From positions 1-39,454 of the forward strand of contig CAIQJL010000337.1 of assembly GCA_903872185.1 (NCBI GenBank): a stretch of DNA of 39,454 nucleotides, read 5' to 3'. Below are positions 15,574 to 21,720 of the stretch, one piece after another. The stretch comes from an uncultured Bacteroidota bacterium (GTDB lineage Bacteria > Bacteroidota > Bacteroidia > Bacteroidales > GWA2-32-17). Position 1 is the first letter of the stretch; each line of letters begins with the position of its first letter. Below the pieces are notes generated by a model. That model was not told the origin of the DNA, ran no database searches, and saw only the letters and a list, made by a program, of their open reading frames with translations. The translations under genes were made by a program, and so were the position numbers.

Positions 15574-15584
15574 ATCTTAATCTG

Positions 15585-15668
15585 TACCCGGAGCCGGGGT
15601 CGAACCGGCACGAGTATGACCTCACTGGTGTTTGAGACCAGCGCGTCTACCAATTCCGCCATCCGGGC
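15585..15668 (-). tRNA. tRNA-Leu (anticodon CAA)
   Basis: The minus strand folds into an 84-base class II tRNA. The acceptor stem is GCCCGGA/TCCGGGT, the anticodon arm CTGGT-CTCAAAC-ACCAG gives anticodon CAA (reads UUG), the long variable arm is GAG-GTCATA-CTC-like, and the T arm is GCCGG-TTCGACC-CCGGC. The discriminator base is A, as expected for leucine. CCA is not encoded. The 1-72 pair is a G-U wobble, less common than G-C. Confidence 0.95.
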
Positions 15669-15828: not shown

Positions 15829-15856
15829 TTAATCTGGAATTAACATCTAGTTAATA
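15829..15856 (+). promoter_or_regulatory. Putative Pho box upstream of the porin
   Basis: Three hexamers related to TTAACA lie in strict 11-bp phase: TTAATC at 15829, TTAACA at 15840 and TTAATA at 15851. The last covers the place where a -33 element should be, 15 bases (start to start) before the -7 element at 15866. Eleven-bp direct repeats are the form of PhoB and PhoP binding sites in other phyla. The same layout recurs before pstS. Regulation by a PhoB-like protein is inferred; no such gene is in the window. Confidence 0.65.
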
Positions 15857-15865
15857 TTGGGAGAA

Positions 15866-15873
15866 TACATTTG
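15866..15873 (+). promoter_or_regulatory. -7 element of the porin gene
   Basis: TACATTTG is a full match to TAnnTTTG. It predicts transcription from about 15880. There is no recognisable -33 element, whose place is taken by the last 11-bp repeat, as expected for an activator-dependent promoter. The first ATG (15887) would have a leader of about 7 bases and the second (15899) about 19. Confidence 0.6.
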
Positions 15874-15886
15874 CAATATAATTTAA

Positions 15887-17215
15887 ATGAAAACAAAGAT
15901 GAAAAAACATTTTTTTCTAAACACAATTCTGGTAACACTATTAATGAATTTGTCACTAATAACTAAAGCCCAGGAAACAGAACTTACACCATTTGACACA
16001 TTGGCTAATAGTGTAAATAAAATTAAAGATGATGTAGATTTACTGAAACGTATAAAAATTTCTGGTTATTTACAACCTCAATTTCAAATGACAGATTCAA
16101 ACGGATCTGCAAATTATTCTGGTGGAAATTTCAATGCTAACACAGATAAACGTTTCTTATTAAGAAGAGCACGTATAAAATTTTCTTATGAAACATTATT
16201 AACCCAATATGTATTTCAAATAGATGCAACGCAATCTGGATTGGCAATAAAAGACATGTATGCTAAATTTACTGAGCCTTGGGCAAAGGCGGTTTCGTTA
16301 ACAGTTGGTTGTATGAATCGTCCTTTTGGTTACGAAATAGGTTACTCTTCAAGCTTAAGAGAATCTCCAGAAAGAGGTAGAATGTCTCAAATTATTTTTC
16401 CTAGCGAAAGAGATTTAGGTGCAATGATAACATTACAAATGCCAAAAACATCAAGATGGAATTATATAAAAGCCGAAGCTGGGATGTTTAACGGAACAGG
16501 ACCAACTGCAGTTGACTTTGATTATCAAAAGGATTTTATTGGCAGAATTAGAATTGATAAATCTACAAAATCAGAGAAAATATCTTATGGAGCAGGACTT
16601 TCATATTATAATGGTGGATATCGCCAAGGAAGAAAAAATGTTTATACCAATGCAGCCGATTCATCAGGTTTAATGGCTTATGTTTTAAATAGCGATACTA
16701 CTAATTATGGTAAAATAGCAAAGCGCACATATCTGGGTGGCGACTTTCAATTGAATCTTGATCTACCAATAGGTATGACAACTATTCGTGCAGAATATAT
16801 TCAAGGACAACAACCAGGAACATCATCATCAACTGCTAGTCCAACAGCACAGCCAACAACAGATAACTACATGAGAAATTTTAATGGTGCATATTTTTAT
16901 TTCTTGCAAAATATATGGACAACAAAATTTCAACTTATTGCAAAATATGATTGGTATGATCCAAATACCGATGTAGCAGGTGATATAATTGGACAAACAG
17001 TAAAATCTTCTGCAGATATAAAAGTTACTAAGACTGGGAAACAAGATTTGAGATACACAACCATTGGATTAGGTATAGCATATCGCTGGGATAACAACAT
17101 TAAAATTACTGCTTACTATGATATAGTTAAAAATGAAACAAGTAAAAATGTTGTAGGATATACAAAAGACTTAAAAGATAATGTTTTTACTTTAAGGGTT
17201 CAGTATAAGTTTTAA
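15887..17215 (+). CDS. OprP/OprO-type phosphate-selective porin
   Basis: The product (442 residues from the first ATG) has a signal peptide ending near LITKAQE, a short coiled segment (DTLANSVNKIKDDVDLLKRI), and then barrel strands starting with ISGYLQPQFQMTD. RFLLRRARIKFSYE, MNRPFGYEIGYSS and the final FTLRVQYKF are typical of the OprO/OprP porin family. It would carry phosphate or polyphosphate across the outer membrane for the Pst transporter encoded directly downstream. Position and the shared Pho-box-like promoter support this. Translation could instead start at 15899 (MKKHFFL), which leaves a longer leader and an equally good signal; I list the longer form. There is no terminator before pstS. 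Confidence 0.88.
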   Translation: MKTKMKKHFFLNTILVTLLMNLSLITKAQETELTPFDTLANSVNKIKDDVDLLKRIKISGYLQPQFQMTDSNGSANYSGGNFNANTDKRFLLRRARIKFSYETLLTQYVFQIDATQSGLAIKDMYAKFTEPWAKAVSLTVGCMNRPFGYEIGYSSSLRESPERGRMSQIIFPSERDLGAMITLQMPKTSRWNYIKAEAGMFNGTGPTAVDFDYQKDFIGRIRIDKSTKSEKISYGAGLSYYNGGYRQGRKNVYTNAADSSGLMAYVLNSDTTNYGKIAKRTYLGGDFQLNLDLPIGMTTIRAEYIQGQQPGTSSSTASPTAQPTTDNYMRNFNGAYFYFLQNIWTTKFQLIAKYDWYDPNTDVAGDIIGQTVKSSADIKVTKTGKQDLRYTTIGLGIAYRWDNNIKITAYYDIVKNETSKNVVGYTKDLKDNVFTLRVQYKF

Positions 17216-17221
17216 AATAAC

Positions 17222-17260
17222 TTAACAATAACTTAAGATTACGAAAACATTGAGTTAATA
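17222..17260 (+). promoter_or_regulatory. Putative Pho box upstream of pstS
   Basis: TTAACA at 17222, TTAAGA at 17233, the degenerate AAAACA at 17244 and TTAATA at 17255 lie in exact 11-bp phase. The last repeat starts 15 bases before the -7-like element at 17270, the same distance as before the porin. Agreement of period and spacing at two neighbouring phosphate promoters makes chance unlikely. Confidence 0.65.
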
Positions 17261-17269
17261 CTATAAAAC

Positions 17270-17277
17270 GAAATTTG
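17270..17277 (+). promoter_or_regulatory. -7-like element of pstS
   Basis: GAAATTTG differs from TAnnTTTG at one base. It predicts a start near 17284 and a leader of about 14 bases before the ATG at 17298. A weak -7 with no separate -33 is consistent with activation from the adjoining repeats. Confidence 0.45.
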
Positions 17278-17297
17278 TAATATAAAATATTAAGATA

Positions 17298-18131
17298 ATG
17301 AAAACAAAAATCACAGCAGCACTTTTTATAGCAATAGTTATAAATTTAAGTGCATTCACACAAAACGTAGTGAATATTAAAATTAAAGGAAGCGACACAG
17401 TTCTTCCTCTTTCACAAAAAGAAGCCGAAACTTTTATGAAAAAAAATAAAACTGCAAAAATAACAGTTACTGGTGGTGGAAGCGGTGTTGGAATTGCAGC
17501 TTTTGTTGATGGTTCAACTGATATAGCAATGTCATCACGAAAAATGAAAATGAGTGAAAAAATGAAAATGCAAGATGCTGGAAAAGCTTTTAAAGAAGTA
17601 ATAATTGCAAATGATGCACTTTCGGTTATTGTAAACCCTGCTAATAAAGTAAGTCAGCTTACCCGCGAACAAATTGAAGGAATCTTTACAGGAAAAATAA
17701 CAAATTGGAAAGAAGTAGGTGGCGATGACGAAAAAATTGTTGCTTACTCACGCGAATCTAGCTCAGGAACATTTGAATTTTTTAAAGAACACCTTTTAAA
17801 TAACAAAAATTACGGAACAGCAATTTTAATGATGCCTGCAACTGGTGCTGTTGTGCAATCTGTTAGCCAGACAAAAGGCGCTATCGGATATGTAGGTTTT
17901 GCATATATTGAAAAAAATATAAAAGCTATAAAAATATCTTATGATAAAGGTAAAACGTTTATTGAACCTACAGTAGTTAACGCTAAGAACAAAACTTACC
18001 CTGTTGTACGTCCTTTATATTACTATTACCTAACAAAAGATGAAGCTAAAGTAAAAACATTTGTTGATTACATTTTATCTGAAGAAGGACAAAAAGTAGT
18101 TAACGAAGTTGGATATATTAGTTTGAAATAA
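17298..18131 (+). CDS. pstS: PstS phosphate-binding protein
   Basis: The 277-residue protein has a signal peptide (to about residue 22) and the phosphate-binding motifs of the PstS family: KGSDTVLPLSQ (30-40), TGGGSGVGIAAF (58-69) and SRESSSGTFEFF (151-162). The stretch IEGIFTGKITNWKEVGG (126-142) is the usual link in domain II. It captures phosphate in the periplasm and hands it to the PstCA channel. It is followed after 14 bases by pstC. The 82-base gap upstream carries the putative Pho box and no terminator, so it can be read from its own promoter and from the porin. Confidence 0.93.
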   Translation: MKTKITAALFIAIVINLSAFTQNVVNIKIKGSDTVLPLSQKEAETFMKKNKTAKITVTGGGSGVGIAAFVDGSTDIAMSSRKMKMSEKMKMQDAGKAFKEVIIANDALSVIVNPANKVSQLTREQIEGIFTGKITNWKEVGGDDEKIVAYSRESSSGTFEFFKEHLLNNKNYGTAILMMPATGAVVQSVSQTKGAIGYVGFAYIEKNIKAIKISYDKGKTFIEPTVVNAKNKTYPVVRPLYYYYLTKDEAKVKTFVDYILSEEGQKVVNEVGYISLK

Positions 18132-18145
18132 TTGAAACTATAAAA

Positions 18146-19354
18146 ATGATTAAGTTCTTAAAATCCATATTTGAAAAGCTTATAGAAGGAACATTATTTT
18201 TAAGCAGCACTATAACCACATTGGCTATAGTGCTGATTATTATTTTCCTTTTTAAAGAAGGAATTGGAACTTTTAATCAGACTCCTATTGAAGATGGTTT
18301 TTCGTTAGTAGTAAATAAGAACAATCCCATTAATGAATTATCTGCCCCGGAAATTAAAAATATTTTCGATCAAAATATTACAAACTGGAAAACAGTAGGT
18401 GGTAAAAATGATTCTATAACATTATTCAATTTAGATAATATCGGCGAATTCTATTCAGATTCTGCAATAGGTGAAAATTTTGAATTTCTTCCACAATGCA
18501 TAAGTGATTATACCGAAAAAAACCCAGGAGTGGTAGCCTTTGTTTCAACAAGGTATACAGAAAAAGGTTTTACTGGAAAAATATTAACTACACCAAAAGT
18601 AAAAGTTACAGAGTTTATCTCTCAAAAAGAATGGTTTCCTACTGCACAGCCAGCAGCACAACTAGGAGTTTTACCATTAATCTTAGGAACACTTTGGGTA
18701 AGTTTTGGTGCAATATTAATTGCTCTTCCGTTAGGATTATCCACCTCTATTTATATGGCAGAAATAGCCAGTCCGAAAATCAGAAATATTTTAAAACCAC
18801 TTATTGAATTATTAGCTGGCATTCCGTCTGTAGTATATGGATTTTTTGGTTTAGTTGTTATAGTTCCCGAAATACAGAAACTATTTAATTTACCTGTAGG
18901 CGAAACAGCATTGGCAGGAAGCATTGTTCTAGCTATTATGGCATTGCCTACAATAATTACAATTTCTGAAGATGCACTTAGAACAACTCCAAAATCTATG
19001 AAAGAAGCCAGTCTGGCACTTGGAGCCAACAAATGGCAAACAATATACAGAGTTGTTATTCCTTACTCTGGTTCGGGCATTACAGCTGCTACAATACTTG
19101 GTATTGGTCGTGCAATTGGTGAAACCATGGCAGTATTAATGGTAACAGGTAATGCAGCAGTTATTCCGCATTCATTTTTAGAACCCGTCAGAACAATTCC
19201 TGCAACTATAGCTGCAGAATTGGGAGAGGCTCCACAAGGCGGCCTTCATTACAAAGCATTATTTGCGCTTGGTTGTATATTATTTATTATAACAATGGCT
19301 ATAAATCTTATAGTAGGATATATTTCCTCTAAGAAAAAGTATAACGCAAAATGA
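18146..19354 (+). CDS. pstC: PstC phosphate permease with a PstS-like insert
   Basis: At 402 residues this is about 80 longer than E. coli PstC. Helix 1 (about 18-37) is followed by an extra region, 47-160, which resembles PstS: SLVVNKNNPINELSAPEIKN and IFDQNITNWKTVGG parallel PstS 109-142, and NPGVVAFVSTRY parallels the PstS segment GAIGYVGFAYIE. The phosphate-contacting SRESSSGT and the whole first PstS lobe are absent, so the insert probably does not bind phosphate itself. The permease domain starts at about 172 and has the conserved EAxxxLGA loop (EASLALGANKWQT) for contact with PstB. The stop overlaps the pstA start by four bases (ATGA), indicating translational coupling. Confidence 0.92.
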   Translation: MIKFLKSIFEKLIEGTLFLSSTITTLAIVLIIIFLFKEGIGTFNQTPIEDGFSLVVNKNNPINELSAPEIKNIFDQNITNWKTVGGKNDSITLFNLDNIGEFYSDSAIGENFEFLPQCISDYTEKNPGVVAFVSTRYTEKGFTGKILTTPKVKVTEFISQKEWFPTAQPAAQLGVLPLILGTLWVSFGAILIALPLGLSTSIYMAEIASPKIRNILKPLIELLAGIPSVVYGFFGLVVIVPEIQKLFNLPVGETALAGSIVLAIMALPTIITISEDALRTTPKSMKEASLALGANKWQTIYRVVIPYSGSGITAATILGIGRAIGETMAVLMVTGNAAVIPHSFLEPVRTIPATIAAELGEAPQGGLHYKALFALGCILFIITMAINLIVGYISSKKKYNAK

Positions 19355-20229
19355 TAATTAGTAAAAAAGTCATACAGAATAAGAATTTAAAAGAAAAAAT
19401 TGCATTTAATATTTTTCGAATTTTTAGTGCAATTGTAGTTCTAAGTTTAATTGCTATTTTATCCTTTATTACTTATAATGGTATCAGCGTTATAAACTGG
19501 AATTTTTTAACTCAAATGCCAGAAGATGGGATGACAAAAGGAGGCATTTATCCTGCTATAATTGGCACTTTATATTTAGTTGCAGGAAGTATGATTTTTG
19601 CAATTCCAATTGGAGTTTTTTCTGGAATATATATTAATGAATATACTAAAGACAGTTGGTATAAGCGCTTTATTAAATTAATGACAAATAATCTTGCAGG
19701 AATTCCATCCATTGTATTTGGATTATTTGGAATGTCATTATTTGTAAACACATTAGGTTTTGGCGATTCAATAATTGCTGGGTCACTCACATTAGGGTTA
19801 ATGGTGCTGCCCGTTGTTATAAGAACTACTGAAGAAGCATTAAAAGCAGTCGATAATTCGTTTAGATTAGCCAGTTTAGCATTAGGTGCAACTAAGCTAC
19901 AAACAATCAGAAAAGTTGTTCTGCCAATGGCTTTCCCAAATATTATAACAGGAATTATTCTTTCAATAGGAAGAGTCTCTGGAGAAACTGCACCTATTTT
20001 ATTTACAGTTGCTGCATATTTTTTACCTAAATTACCTTCAAGCATTTTCGATCAGGTTATGGCATTACCTTACCATCTTTATGTGATTTCTACAAGTGGA
20101 ACAAACGTTGAAGCATCTCGACCAATAGCTTACGGAACAGCTTTAGTTTTAATTGGATTTGTTTTAATTGTGAACTTATTAGCAAATGCATTAAGAAGAT
20201 ACTTTGGAAAAAAAGTTAAAATGAATTAA
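19351..20229 (+). CDS. pstA: PstA phosphate permease
   Basis: The 292-residue protein has six hydrophobic helices, an N-terminal one at about 25-45 and five in the permease domain. Conserved features include [14 protein letters not shown] (about 112-125) and the EAA-like loop [14 protein letters not shown], the contact site for the ATPase. It pairs with PstC to form the membrane channel. Length is normal and there is no insert like the one in PstC. It overlaps pstC by four bases and ends one base before pstB. Confidence 0.93.
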
Positions 20230-20230
20230 A

Positions 20231-20986
20231 ATGAAAAATATTATAACAACAGATAAAGTAAATTTATTTTATGGTGAATCACAAGCCTTGAAAGATATTA
20301 CTTTAGATTTTTTACCAAATACTGTAACAGCTTTAATTGGTCCTTCGGGTTGTGGAAAATCAACCTACCTTAGGTTATTTAACCGAATGAACGACTTGAT
20401 AGACAATGTGAAAATTACTGGAAATATTACTGTAGAAGGAGAAAATATTTATCAAAAAGATACTAATATTGTTGAGTTAAGAAGAAAAGTTGGAATGGTT
20501 TTTCAAAAACCAAATCCTTTTCCAAAATCAATCTTCGAAAATGTTGCATATGGTTTAAGAGTGAACGGCGTTAACGAAATGTCGGTATTAAAAGAAAAGG
20601 TTGAATTTTCTTTAAAACAAGCTGCATTATGGGACGAAGTTAAAGATAAATTAAAAAAATCTGCCTTTGAATTATCGGGCGGACAACAACAACGACTATG
20701 TATAGCAAGGGCATTAGCTATAGAACCGTCAATAGTTTTAATGGACGAACCTGCATCTGCACTCGATCCTATTTCTACAGCAAAAATTGAAGAATTAATT
20801 TATGAATTAAAAAGTAAATACACAATTGTTATAGTAACACATAATCTTCAGCAAGCCGGGAGAGTTAGTGATTATACAGCTTTCTTCTATTTAGGCGAAC
20901 TGATAGAAAAAGGGATTACAAAAGAATTGTTTATCAACCCTAAAAACATTAAAACTCAAAATTATATAACAGGTAGATTTGGTTGA
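20231..20986 (+). CDS. pstB: PstB phosphate-transport ATPase
   Basis: The 251-residue ATPase shows Walker [10 protein letters not shown] (37-45), a Q-loop [20 protein letters not shown] typical of PstB, the signature LSGGQQQR, Walker [13 protein letters not shown] and the switch histidine in VTHNLQQA. The PNPFPKS segment after the Q-loop separates PstB from other importer ATPases. It drives phosphate import through PstCA. It begins one base after pstA and is followed by a 56-base gap before phoU. Confidence 0.95.
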
Positions 20987-21042: not shown

Positions 21043-21720
21043 ATGAACCACTTAGAAACAGAAATTAAATCGTTAAAAAGAAACGTTGTTGAAATGTGGC
21101 ATTTGGTAAATAGTCAGCTTGATAAATCACAAAGAGTATTGACTGATTTTGACAAAAACCTATGTCAGAATATAAAAGTAAACGAAAAAATGGTTGATAC
21201 TTTTGAATTAATGATTGACAAAGATTGTGAAAATATTTTAGCTCTTTATAGTCCTGTTGCTATTGATTTGCGATTTGTTTTATCGGTATTAAAAGTAAAC
21301 TACAACCTTGAAAGAATTGGCGATTATGCAAGCGGAATAAGTAAATTAGTAAACGAATTAGAAAATCCAATTACTCAGGAATTATTTACTTCAACAAAAA
21401 TTGTTGAAATGTTCAATTTGTGTAAAGAGCTGTTAAAAGAAAGCTTAATTTCTTTTGAACATGAAAATAATTGGGAAACAAGAAATATTTTATGTCGCGA
21501 TAAAGCCATAAATAAAATAAATAGAGATGCAACAAAAATTGTTTCTGATTATATTATAAATAATCCCGGTGATGTAATGATTGCAATGAATGTATTATCA
21601 ATAATCAGGAAACTAGAACGCGTTGGCGATCACATACAAAATATTGCAGAAGAATTAATTTTCTTTATGGAAGCAAAAGTTTTAAAACATCAGAAAAAGA
21701 AAAAGGATATTTCAGAATAA
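21043..21720 (+). CDS. phoU: PhoU phosphate-signalling protein
   Basis: The 225-residue helical protein has the two repeats of PhoU, each with its metal-binding motif: ERIGDYASGI at 90-99 and ERVGDHIQNIAEE near 190. PhoU links the state of the Pst transporter to the PhoR sensor kinase and restrains phosphate uptake. No phoB or phoR gene lies in this window, so the sensor must be encoded elsewhere. The C-terminus is Lys-rich (KHQKKKKD). It is the last gene of the pst group and is followed by a strong terminator. Confidence 0.92.
   Translation: MNHLETEIKSLKRNVVEMWHLVNSQLDKSQRVLTDFDKNLCQNIKVNEKMVDTFELMIDKDCENILALYSPVAIDLRFVLSVLKVNYNLERIGDYASGISKLVNELENPITQELFTSTKIVEMFNLCKELLKESLISFEHENNWETRNILCRDKAINKINRDATKIVSDYIINNPGDVMIAMNVLSIIRKLERVGDHIQNIAEELIFFMEAKVLKHQKKKKDISE

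Follow-up and report, generated by a model that had tools for sequence, protein, structure and literature searches.

Introduction

In Escherichia coli the Pho box precedes pst and phoB, and PhoB stands in for the -35 element. The PhoP box of Bacillus subtilis consists of TT[ACT]ACA-like units with spacers of about 5 bp, and four units lie near -20 to -60. Promoters of Bacteroidota have a -7/-33 architecture that differs from the textbook -10/-35, and to our knowledge few activator sites have been defined base by base for them. In the available passages of PMC4415409, the E. coli PhoB box is described as 11-nucleotide direct repeat units, 7 nucleotides of which are well conserved (heptamer CTGTCAT), with head-to-tail binding of PhoB.

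For Riemerella anatipestifer, the excerpts at hand from PMC9603813 report a PhoP DAP-seq motif with TTTAACA as the most conserved letters and a shift by PhoP of a 35-nt site upstream of its own operon. Bacteroides fragilis without PhoB retained a trace of pstC expression, and PhoB shifted a pstC promoter fragment (passages of PMC3547664). Phosphate depletion of Flavobacterium johnsoniae induced PhoB, PlcP, TonB transporters and other genes but left the OprP porin of the PhoBR operon uninduced (passages of PMC8115612). In the open-licence literature, as represented by titles, abstract openings and passages, no Bacteroidota Pho box was found whose 11-bp register is tied to the -7 element. A PhoB/PhoP-type site is already known, and the fixed register and its reach appear to be new.

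Here we describe two arrays of 11-bp repeats in a window of 39,454 nucleotides, which is contig C337 of the draft genome (4.3 Mb, 407 contigs) of an uncultured bacterium of the Bacteroidales. The arrays resemble the E. coli PhoB box in their 11-nt direct repeat units. They differ from it in the heptamer, which is TTAACAT here, so that CTGTCAT as the mark of a proteobacterial Pho box is lacking, and in their placement 15+11n bp before a TAnnTTTG -7 element. The B. subtilis PhoP box, as generally described, has nearly the unit sequence, period, unit number and distance to the transcript start seen here, but belongs to a different phylum with a different sigma factor and core promoter. Riemerella PhoP is likewise an OmpR-family Pho regulator of a Bacteroidota species, and its TTTAACA letters are near the unit described here; the consulted text of that report, as distinct from its motif figure, gives no 11-bp tandem register or -7 distance and stresses pathogenicity and the Bat operon over phosphate uptake (PMC9603813). 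In B. fragilis, pst expression depends on PhoB, which binds the promoter fragment, but this was shown on 512 bp; the word "motif" is absent from the main text, and the passages give no site (PMC3547664).

Results

Two arrays precede the porin and pstS genes

The features of the locus are listed in Table 1. A sequence-only reading had proposed seven Pho-box-like hexamers upstream of the porin and pstS genes. All seven were confirmed in the sequence at the positions claimed, and direct reading showed an exact 11-bp period in both arrays. The same reading had placed the last repeat 15 bp before a TAnnTTTG-like -7 element. The distance was correct for both promoters; for pstS the octamer is GAAATTTG and departs from TAnnTTTG.

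Table 1. Genes and promoter elements of the porin-pst locus in the window
Feature	Position	Strand	Remark
tRNA-Leu (anticodon caa)	15584-15668	-	upstream of the porin promoter
Porin promoter unit TTAATC	15829-15834	+	37 bp before the -7 element; relatives have ATAAAA or TTAAAA in the same register
Porin promoter unit TTAACAT	15840-15846	+	26 bp before the -7 element; identical in 4/4 aligned genus members
Porin promoter unit TTAATAT	15851-15857	+	15 bp before the -7 element; same in three genus members, GTAACAC in G006
Porin promoter -7 element TACATTTG	15866-15873	+	predicted transcript start near 15878
Outer-membrane porin gene, first gene before pstS	15887-17215	+	without Pfam match; porin by its relatives
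pstS promoter unit TTAACA	17222-17227	+	48 bp before the -7 element
pstS promoter unit TTAAGA	17233-17238	+	37 bp before the -7 element
pstS promoter unit AAAACAT (degenerate)	17244-17250	+	26 bp before the -7 element; relatives have TACATAT, TAAATAT, GAAATAT
pstS promoter unit TTAATA	17255-17260	+	15 bp before the -7 element; AGTTAATAC identical in 4/4 aligned genus members
pstS promoter -7-like element GAAATTTG	17270-17277	+	CGAAATTTGTAA identical in 4/4; predicted transcript start near 17282
pstS, phosphate-binding protein	17298-18131	+	PF12849; TIGR02136 above cut-off
pstC-like permease, N-terminal PstS-like segment	18146-19354	+	PF00528 and PF12849
pstA-like permease	19351-20229	+	PF00528
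pstB-like ATPase	20231-20986	+	PF00005
phoU	21043-21720	+	PF01895

Both promoters were compared with those of three genus-mates (G006, G008 and G009), whose PstS proteins are 85-91% identical to that of the window. The pstS promoters aligned without gaps from the first unit to the -7 element across all four genomes, and AGTTAATAC and CGAAATTTGTAA were unchanged in the three genus-mates. At the porin promoter, TTAACAT, the last unit (in the two forms given in Table 1) and TTTG were kept in register. Thus the conservation in orthologous promoters by which the earlier reading had proposed to be judged was observed for both arrays.

The Porin_O_P family (PF07396) was searched in six porins that precede pstS in other loci; three scored above the cut-off, one just below it and two gave no match. 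In the PstC-like permease, the match to the PstS domain lies in the N-terminal stretch and has an E value of 6e-8. Beside pstS of G006, G008 and G009 stands a second frame of 404-413 aa that was also matched by the PstS query. The window's genome carries further pst-like clusters on contig C373 and, as a third, on C225.

Repeat frequency is at chance level

Counting the repeats did not reveal an excess. In the window, TTAAN7TTAAN7TTAA with at most one mismatch had 5 matches against 3.5 expected, and TTAANAN5TTAANA had 4 against 2.3 expected from shuffled DNA. With at most one mismatch, the array pattern matched 274 times in the whole genome, fewer than the 366 matches of the reversed pattern, and the two-unit pattern was likewise not enriched in the window's genome (71 matches, 84 reversed). 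Exact two-unit matches in this genome numbered two, the porin promoter and the promoter of a TonB receptor. A three-unit array without the -7 element was searched in 296 genomes and gave 28 matches against 15 for the reversed pattern, with mixed downstream genes, a result that is weakly informative. Because the counts in window and genome do not exceed chance, repeat frequency was discarded as evidence. The arrays rise above chance by their position and their conservation, as seen in the genus-mates and in phase tests on other loci.

Units stand in a fixed register across pst loci

The distance from TTAAYA to NANNTTTG was measured upstream of genes in pst loci of the class. The first set held 64 pstS genes in 59 loci, drawn from regions around 60 places of pstS matches from which second copies and weak matches had been partly excluded; neither the window nor its three genus-mates entered it. 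Before the pstS genes, offsets of 15, 26, 37 and 48 bp were counted 9, 8, 6 and 7 times, and each other offset between 5 and 61 bp 0-2 times. At least one of the four offsets was present for 20 of the 64 pstS genes, compared with 10 of 449 other genes of these loci; several of these ten were by eye porins or response-regulator genes. In 200 dinucleotide shuffles the mean was 0.42 of the 64 pstS genes. A ladder scan over periods of 7-15 bp and first offsets of 8-29 bp returned a period of 11 and a first offset of 15 as the best combination. Genes downstream of ladder, three-unit, blind, profile and spacing-control matches were named by eye throughout unless a Pfam family is cited.

As a second set, 80 loci of named organisms were collected, and 67 non-redundant loci remained after removal of 12 duplicates of earlier ones and one redundant locus. 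Ladder units were found before 6 of 71 pstS genes, 13 of 62 porins and 15 of 532 other genes. Again a period of 11 was best in the scan, here with a first offset of 26 (22) ahead of 15 (19). The porins of this set had offsets of 26, 37 and 48 bp in 4, 9 and 7 cases and the offset of 15 only once, and the unit at 15 is degenerate in many porin promoters. Up to four or five units stand at 15, 26, 37, 48 and, for a fifth, 59 bp before the -7 element.

For a phase test, the shorter core TAAYA was used on 126 pst loci, again excluding the window and the three genus-mates. In-phase cores numbered at least one in 62 loci, at least two in 35 and at least three in 15. When the register was slid by 1-10 bp in one direction or 1-7 bp in the other, these values fell to 1-9, 0-3 and 0-1. 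Among 981 other genes, at least one in-phase core was present in 41, at least two in 15 and at least three in 1. An exact in-phase TAAYA core was absent in 64 of the 126 pst loci. The counts are not independent events because the loci are related to one another; the slid registers are a fair control because they share the same relatedness. An alignment of 57 sites, with 7 from the window and its genus-mates among them, showed the other three units as the next best offsets whichever of the four was used to select sites.

The promoters of further phosphate-linked genes were included in the phase test. Loci were obtained for DUF47 genes at 30 of 67 places and for PhoX genes at 30 of 42, four of the latter being dropped with less than 120 bp upstream. 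DUF47 promoters had an in-phase core in 8 of 30 and at least two units in 5 of 30 cases, with 0-3 and 0-2 in slid registers, which is a moderate signal. PhoX promoters were weakly positive, with a core in 4 of 26 and two units in 1 of 26 (slid registers, 0-2 and 0).

A blind genome search recovers phosphate genes

The exact pattern TTAAYA-N5-TTAAYA-N10-ANNTTTG was searched blindly in 296 whole genomes of the class. It gave 39 matches in 34 genomes, compared with 9 for the backward pattern. As a spacing control, 3 bp were added before the -7 element; this gave 8 matches, and 12 for its own backward pattern. A downstream frame was present in 3 of these 8, none of them phosphate-linked by eye.

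Phosphate-linked genes lay behind 20 of the 39 blind matches, 17 of them assigned by Pfam. Eight were PstS (PF12849), seven DUF47/PhoU_div (five by PF01865, two by likeness), three porins (two by PF07396 and that of the window), one a calcineurin-like phosphoesterase and one a protein with a PhoD_N domain. The other 19 had no clear phosphate link. They included three TonB-receptor-like genes, two CarboxypepD_reg-like small proteins, two ECF sigma genes, two look-alike DUF2339 genes, a beta-propeller protein and an SprB/PKD protein; for the remainder there was no Pfam match or no gene, or the match lay inside a gene. Pfam was run on 30 proteins behind the matches, leaving out L308, L314, L326, L330 and L331, and no downstream frame stood behind the matches in L319, L333 and L340. 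L330 and L331 were scored as DUF47 by their likeness to L329 and L339, and L320 as phosphatase-linked by its PhoD_N domain alone. Together the offset, phase and blind-search results bear out the predicted enrichment of units at the stated distance before pstS, porin and PhoB-like genes.

A profile was then built from the 37 distinct blind-match sites. Five loci that had fed into it were removed, and 122 of 127 were scored, again excluding the window and its genus-mates. The best site in the whole locus (4-21 kb) preceded pstS or the porin in 66 of the 122 loci. With the reversed profile this number was 11, with the array alone reversed 10 and with permuted columns 3-6. When the array was slid away from the -7 element within the profile, pstS or the porin was still found in 34-38 of the 122 loci. 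Thus much of the signal lies in the array; the exact spacing contributes to it without being sufficient alone. Profile scores were low, from -24.8 to 10.4, for the 16 porin and pstS promoters read in eight loci of Bacteroides, Porphyromonas, Parabacteroides and kin, where the units drift to GTAAYA. Low scores and drift indicate that the code as written weakens toward these genera.

Small proteins of 112-129 aa were seen repeatedly behind the array (L062:16774-17112, L212:15516-15905, L262:7898-8248, L265:4326-4685, L211:4713-5066, and behind the blind matches in L341 and L343). Those of L062, L212, L341 and L343 have CarboxypepD_reg-like Pfam matches, and the others are alike by eye. Because of this repeated placement, the CarboxypepD_reg-like small proteins look like candidates for the phosphate regulon.

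A PhoB-like regulator gene carries the array

An OmpR-family PhoB-like gene lies directly upstream of the porin-pst genes in G009 and G008. Three in-phase TAAY cores precede it in G009 and five in G008, followed by TAACTTTA or TAATTTTA. G006 has the same gene within the same island, with four in-phase cores. In the window's genome, a look-alike of this gene is found on contig C215 (L062:7887-8585), with four in-phase cores before TAATTTTA; behind it come a receiver-only gene, a DNA-binding-domain-only gene, phoU and a Pit-type phosphate permease. At the in-phase -7 position, the PhoB-like genes of the four genus members (L059:6638-7348, L060:8930-9625, L061:12372-13076 and L062:7887-8585) have TAnnTTTA, not TAnnTTTG.

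The best NCBIfam match of the PhoB-like regulator was the Bacteroides PhoB model, below its cut-off. Two of these proteins scored 193-221 bits against the curated PhoB cut-offs of 296 and 270 (TIGR02154 and NF053854) and thus fell short of both, which are still their best-matching families. The DNA-binding domain of the regulator matched E. coli PhoB chains (E about 1e-13), and several other OmpR-family domains scored higher. A TIGR02154 search of the window's genome gave 54 matches, mostly to the receiver part only.

Other promoters of this genome were inspected as well. On C215, the promoter of the Pit permease has three TTAA units in an 11-bp series that is in register with TTTG (octamer GTAATTTG), and it was not flagged by the in-phase test. 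In-phase units precede two further genes of C215, those of a TonB receptor and of a small CarboxypepD_reg protein. By the in-phase test, the array was absent before pstS and the second porin-like gene of C373, before the kinase gene of a phoR/phoB-like pair on C158 and before the metallophosphoesterase gene beside phoB.

Interpretation and alternative explanations

We interpret the porin and pstS arrays as Bacteroidota Pho boxes, that is, as tandem nTAAYAT units that are phase-locked to the -7 element and would be read by a PhoB-type response regulator; we put the probability of this reading at roughly 0.88. Tandem direct repeat units of 11 bp are present. They stand upstream of phosphate-starvation genes, clearly so for pst, porin and PhoB-like genes and weakly for PhoX, and at a fixed distance to the core promoter of 15+11n bp before NAnnTTTG (39 matches, compared with 8 at a spacing longer by 3 bp). 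The consensus first proposed for a Bacteroidota Pho box, TTAAnA-N5, is supported in substance by conservation and by enrichment before phosphate genes, and the aligned sites of the relatives refine the unit to TTAACAT-N4 with the core nTAAYA. Very probably these bacteria use the 11-bp repeat pattern to turn genes on at low phosphate.

Chance was considered because TTAA-like words are common in AT-rich promoters and an 11-bp series of them could be coincidental. The frequency counts agree with this, as the repeats were no commoner in the window than in shuffled DNA and showed no whole-genome excess. In the genus, however, the exact register and spacing are kept, and other loci show them again; the shuffles reached at most 3 of the 64 pstS genes against the 20 observed. 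As far as sequence comparison can do so, coincidence is already refuted, and we regard its probability as negligible. It is also very unlikely that the arrays are a structural AT-tract, a curved or easily melted, UP-element-like stretch without a specific binding protein. The units are indeed AT-rich and in helical phase, but the conserved letters are specific and directional (position 5 is C or T); reversing the profile lowered its successes from 66 to 11 of 122 loci, and the blind matches favour phosphate genes.

Another OmpR-family regulator, such as an ArcA-like redox regulator or a different paralogue, might bind the arrays, the phosphate genes being only part of its targets. According to the available passages, the Riemerella PhoP motif is highly similar to that of E. 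coli ArcA and was present around 579 peaks, a number far beyond a phosphate regulon (PMC9603813). The many TIGR02154 matches in the window's genome and the 19 blind matches without a clear phosphate link point the same way. Against such a regulator, the PhoB-like genes carry the array themselves and neighbour the pst operon in the genus-mates, PstS and DUF47 dominate the blind matches (15 of 39), and pstC expression in B. fragilis requires PhoB, as stated in passages of PMC3547664. We consider another regulator unlikely. For a Pho box read by PhoB, published work, as far as it could be consulted, fits in the main; the non-induction of the F. johnsoniae OprP porin counts against it (passages of PMC8115612).

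PhoB is inferred as the binder from synteny, from the placement of arrays before phoB-like genes and from the published work on relatives. A PhoB-type (OmpR-family) regulator would be phosphorylated when phosphate is scarce and would bind the tandem 11-bp units head to tail on one face of the DNA. Available passages on Flavobacterium psychrophilum place TAnnTTTG at -12 to -5 (PMC9723704), from which the unit starts are derived. In a full site, four units would thus start at about -60, -49, -38 and -27 relative to the transcript start (48, 37, 26 and 15 bp before TAnnTTTG), and the -33 region would lie under the unit at -38. Since the units cover the place of the -33 element, the regulator would stand in for it and hold RNA polymerase on the -7 element. 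A TTG starting 21-25 bp before TAnnTTTG occurred in 0 of 27 ladder sites, and 213 comparison TAnnTTTG sites, picked by sequence, were also without a -33 peak. Activation by binding, the replacement of -33, and transcripts that begin about 12 bp past the first base of the -7 octamer are predictions. The genes turned on would be the outer-membrane porin, the pst operon with phoU, the regulator's own gene and scattered phosphate-scavenging genes.

With more reserve, we lean towards a single phosphate-starvation code for the window's class, perhaps for the phylum, in which up to four or five nTAAYAT units stand at 15+11n bp before TAnnTTTG and PhoB would take over the contact that an unusual sigma factor makes at -33. 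The data suggest that different phyla share the geometry of the PhoB/PhoP box, about four 11-bp units near -27 to -60, and differ in the core promoter. With its exact register, the motif provides a site-level hypothesis of how an OmpR-family activator meets the Bacteroidota RNA polymerase, and it allows the phosphate regulon to be read from genomes of uncultured bacteria. If true, the code alone would predict this regulon, including small CarboxypepD_reg-like proteins, TonB receptors, DUF47 and ECF sigma genes, which we have not seen named as such candidates before.

Genes adjoining the regulator

A response regulator beside phoB is split into a receiver-only and a DNA-binding-domain-only (Trans_reg_C) gene with their own starts (L062:7129-7813 and L061:11633-12315). 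A programmed frameshift between the two was rejected, as both the window's genome and G006 have them as separate frames, each with its own start. It is also contradicted by three other loci, where a receiver-only gene is present and the junction lacks a DNA-binding frame. Between pstS and pstC, G006 has a further DNA-binding-domain-only gene (L061:6659-6952).

A calcineurin-like phosphoesterase and a glycosyltransferase adjoin phoB in the window's genome (L062:8911-10828). The pair is reminiscent of lipid remodelling by PlcP-Agt in phosphate stress. The locus L189 has its best profile site before a look-alike phosphoesterase.
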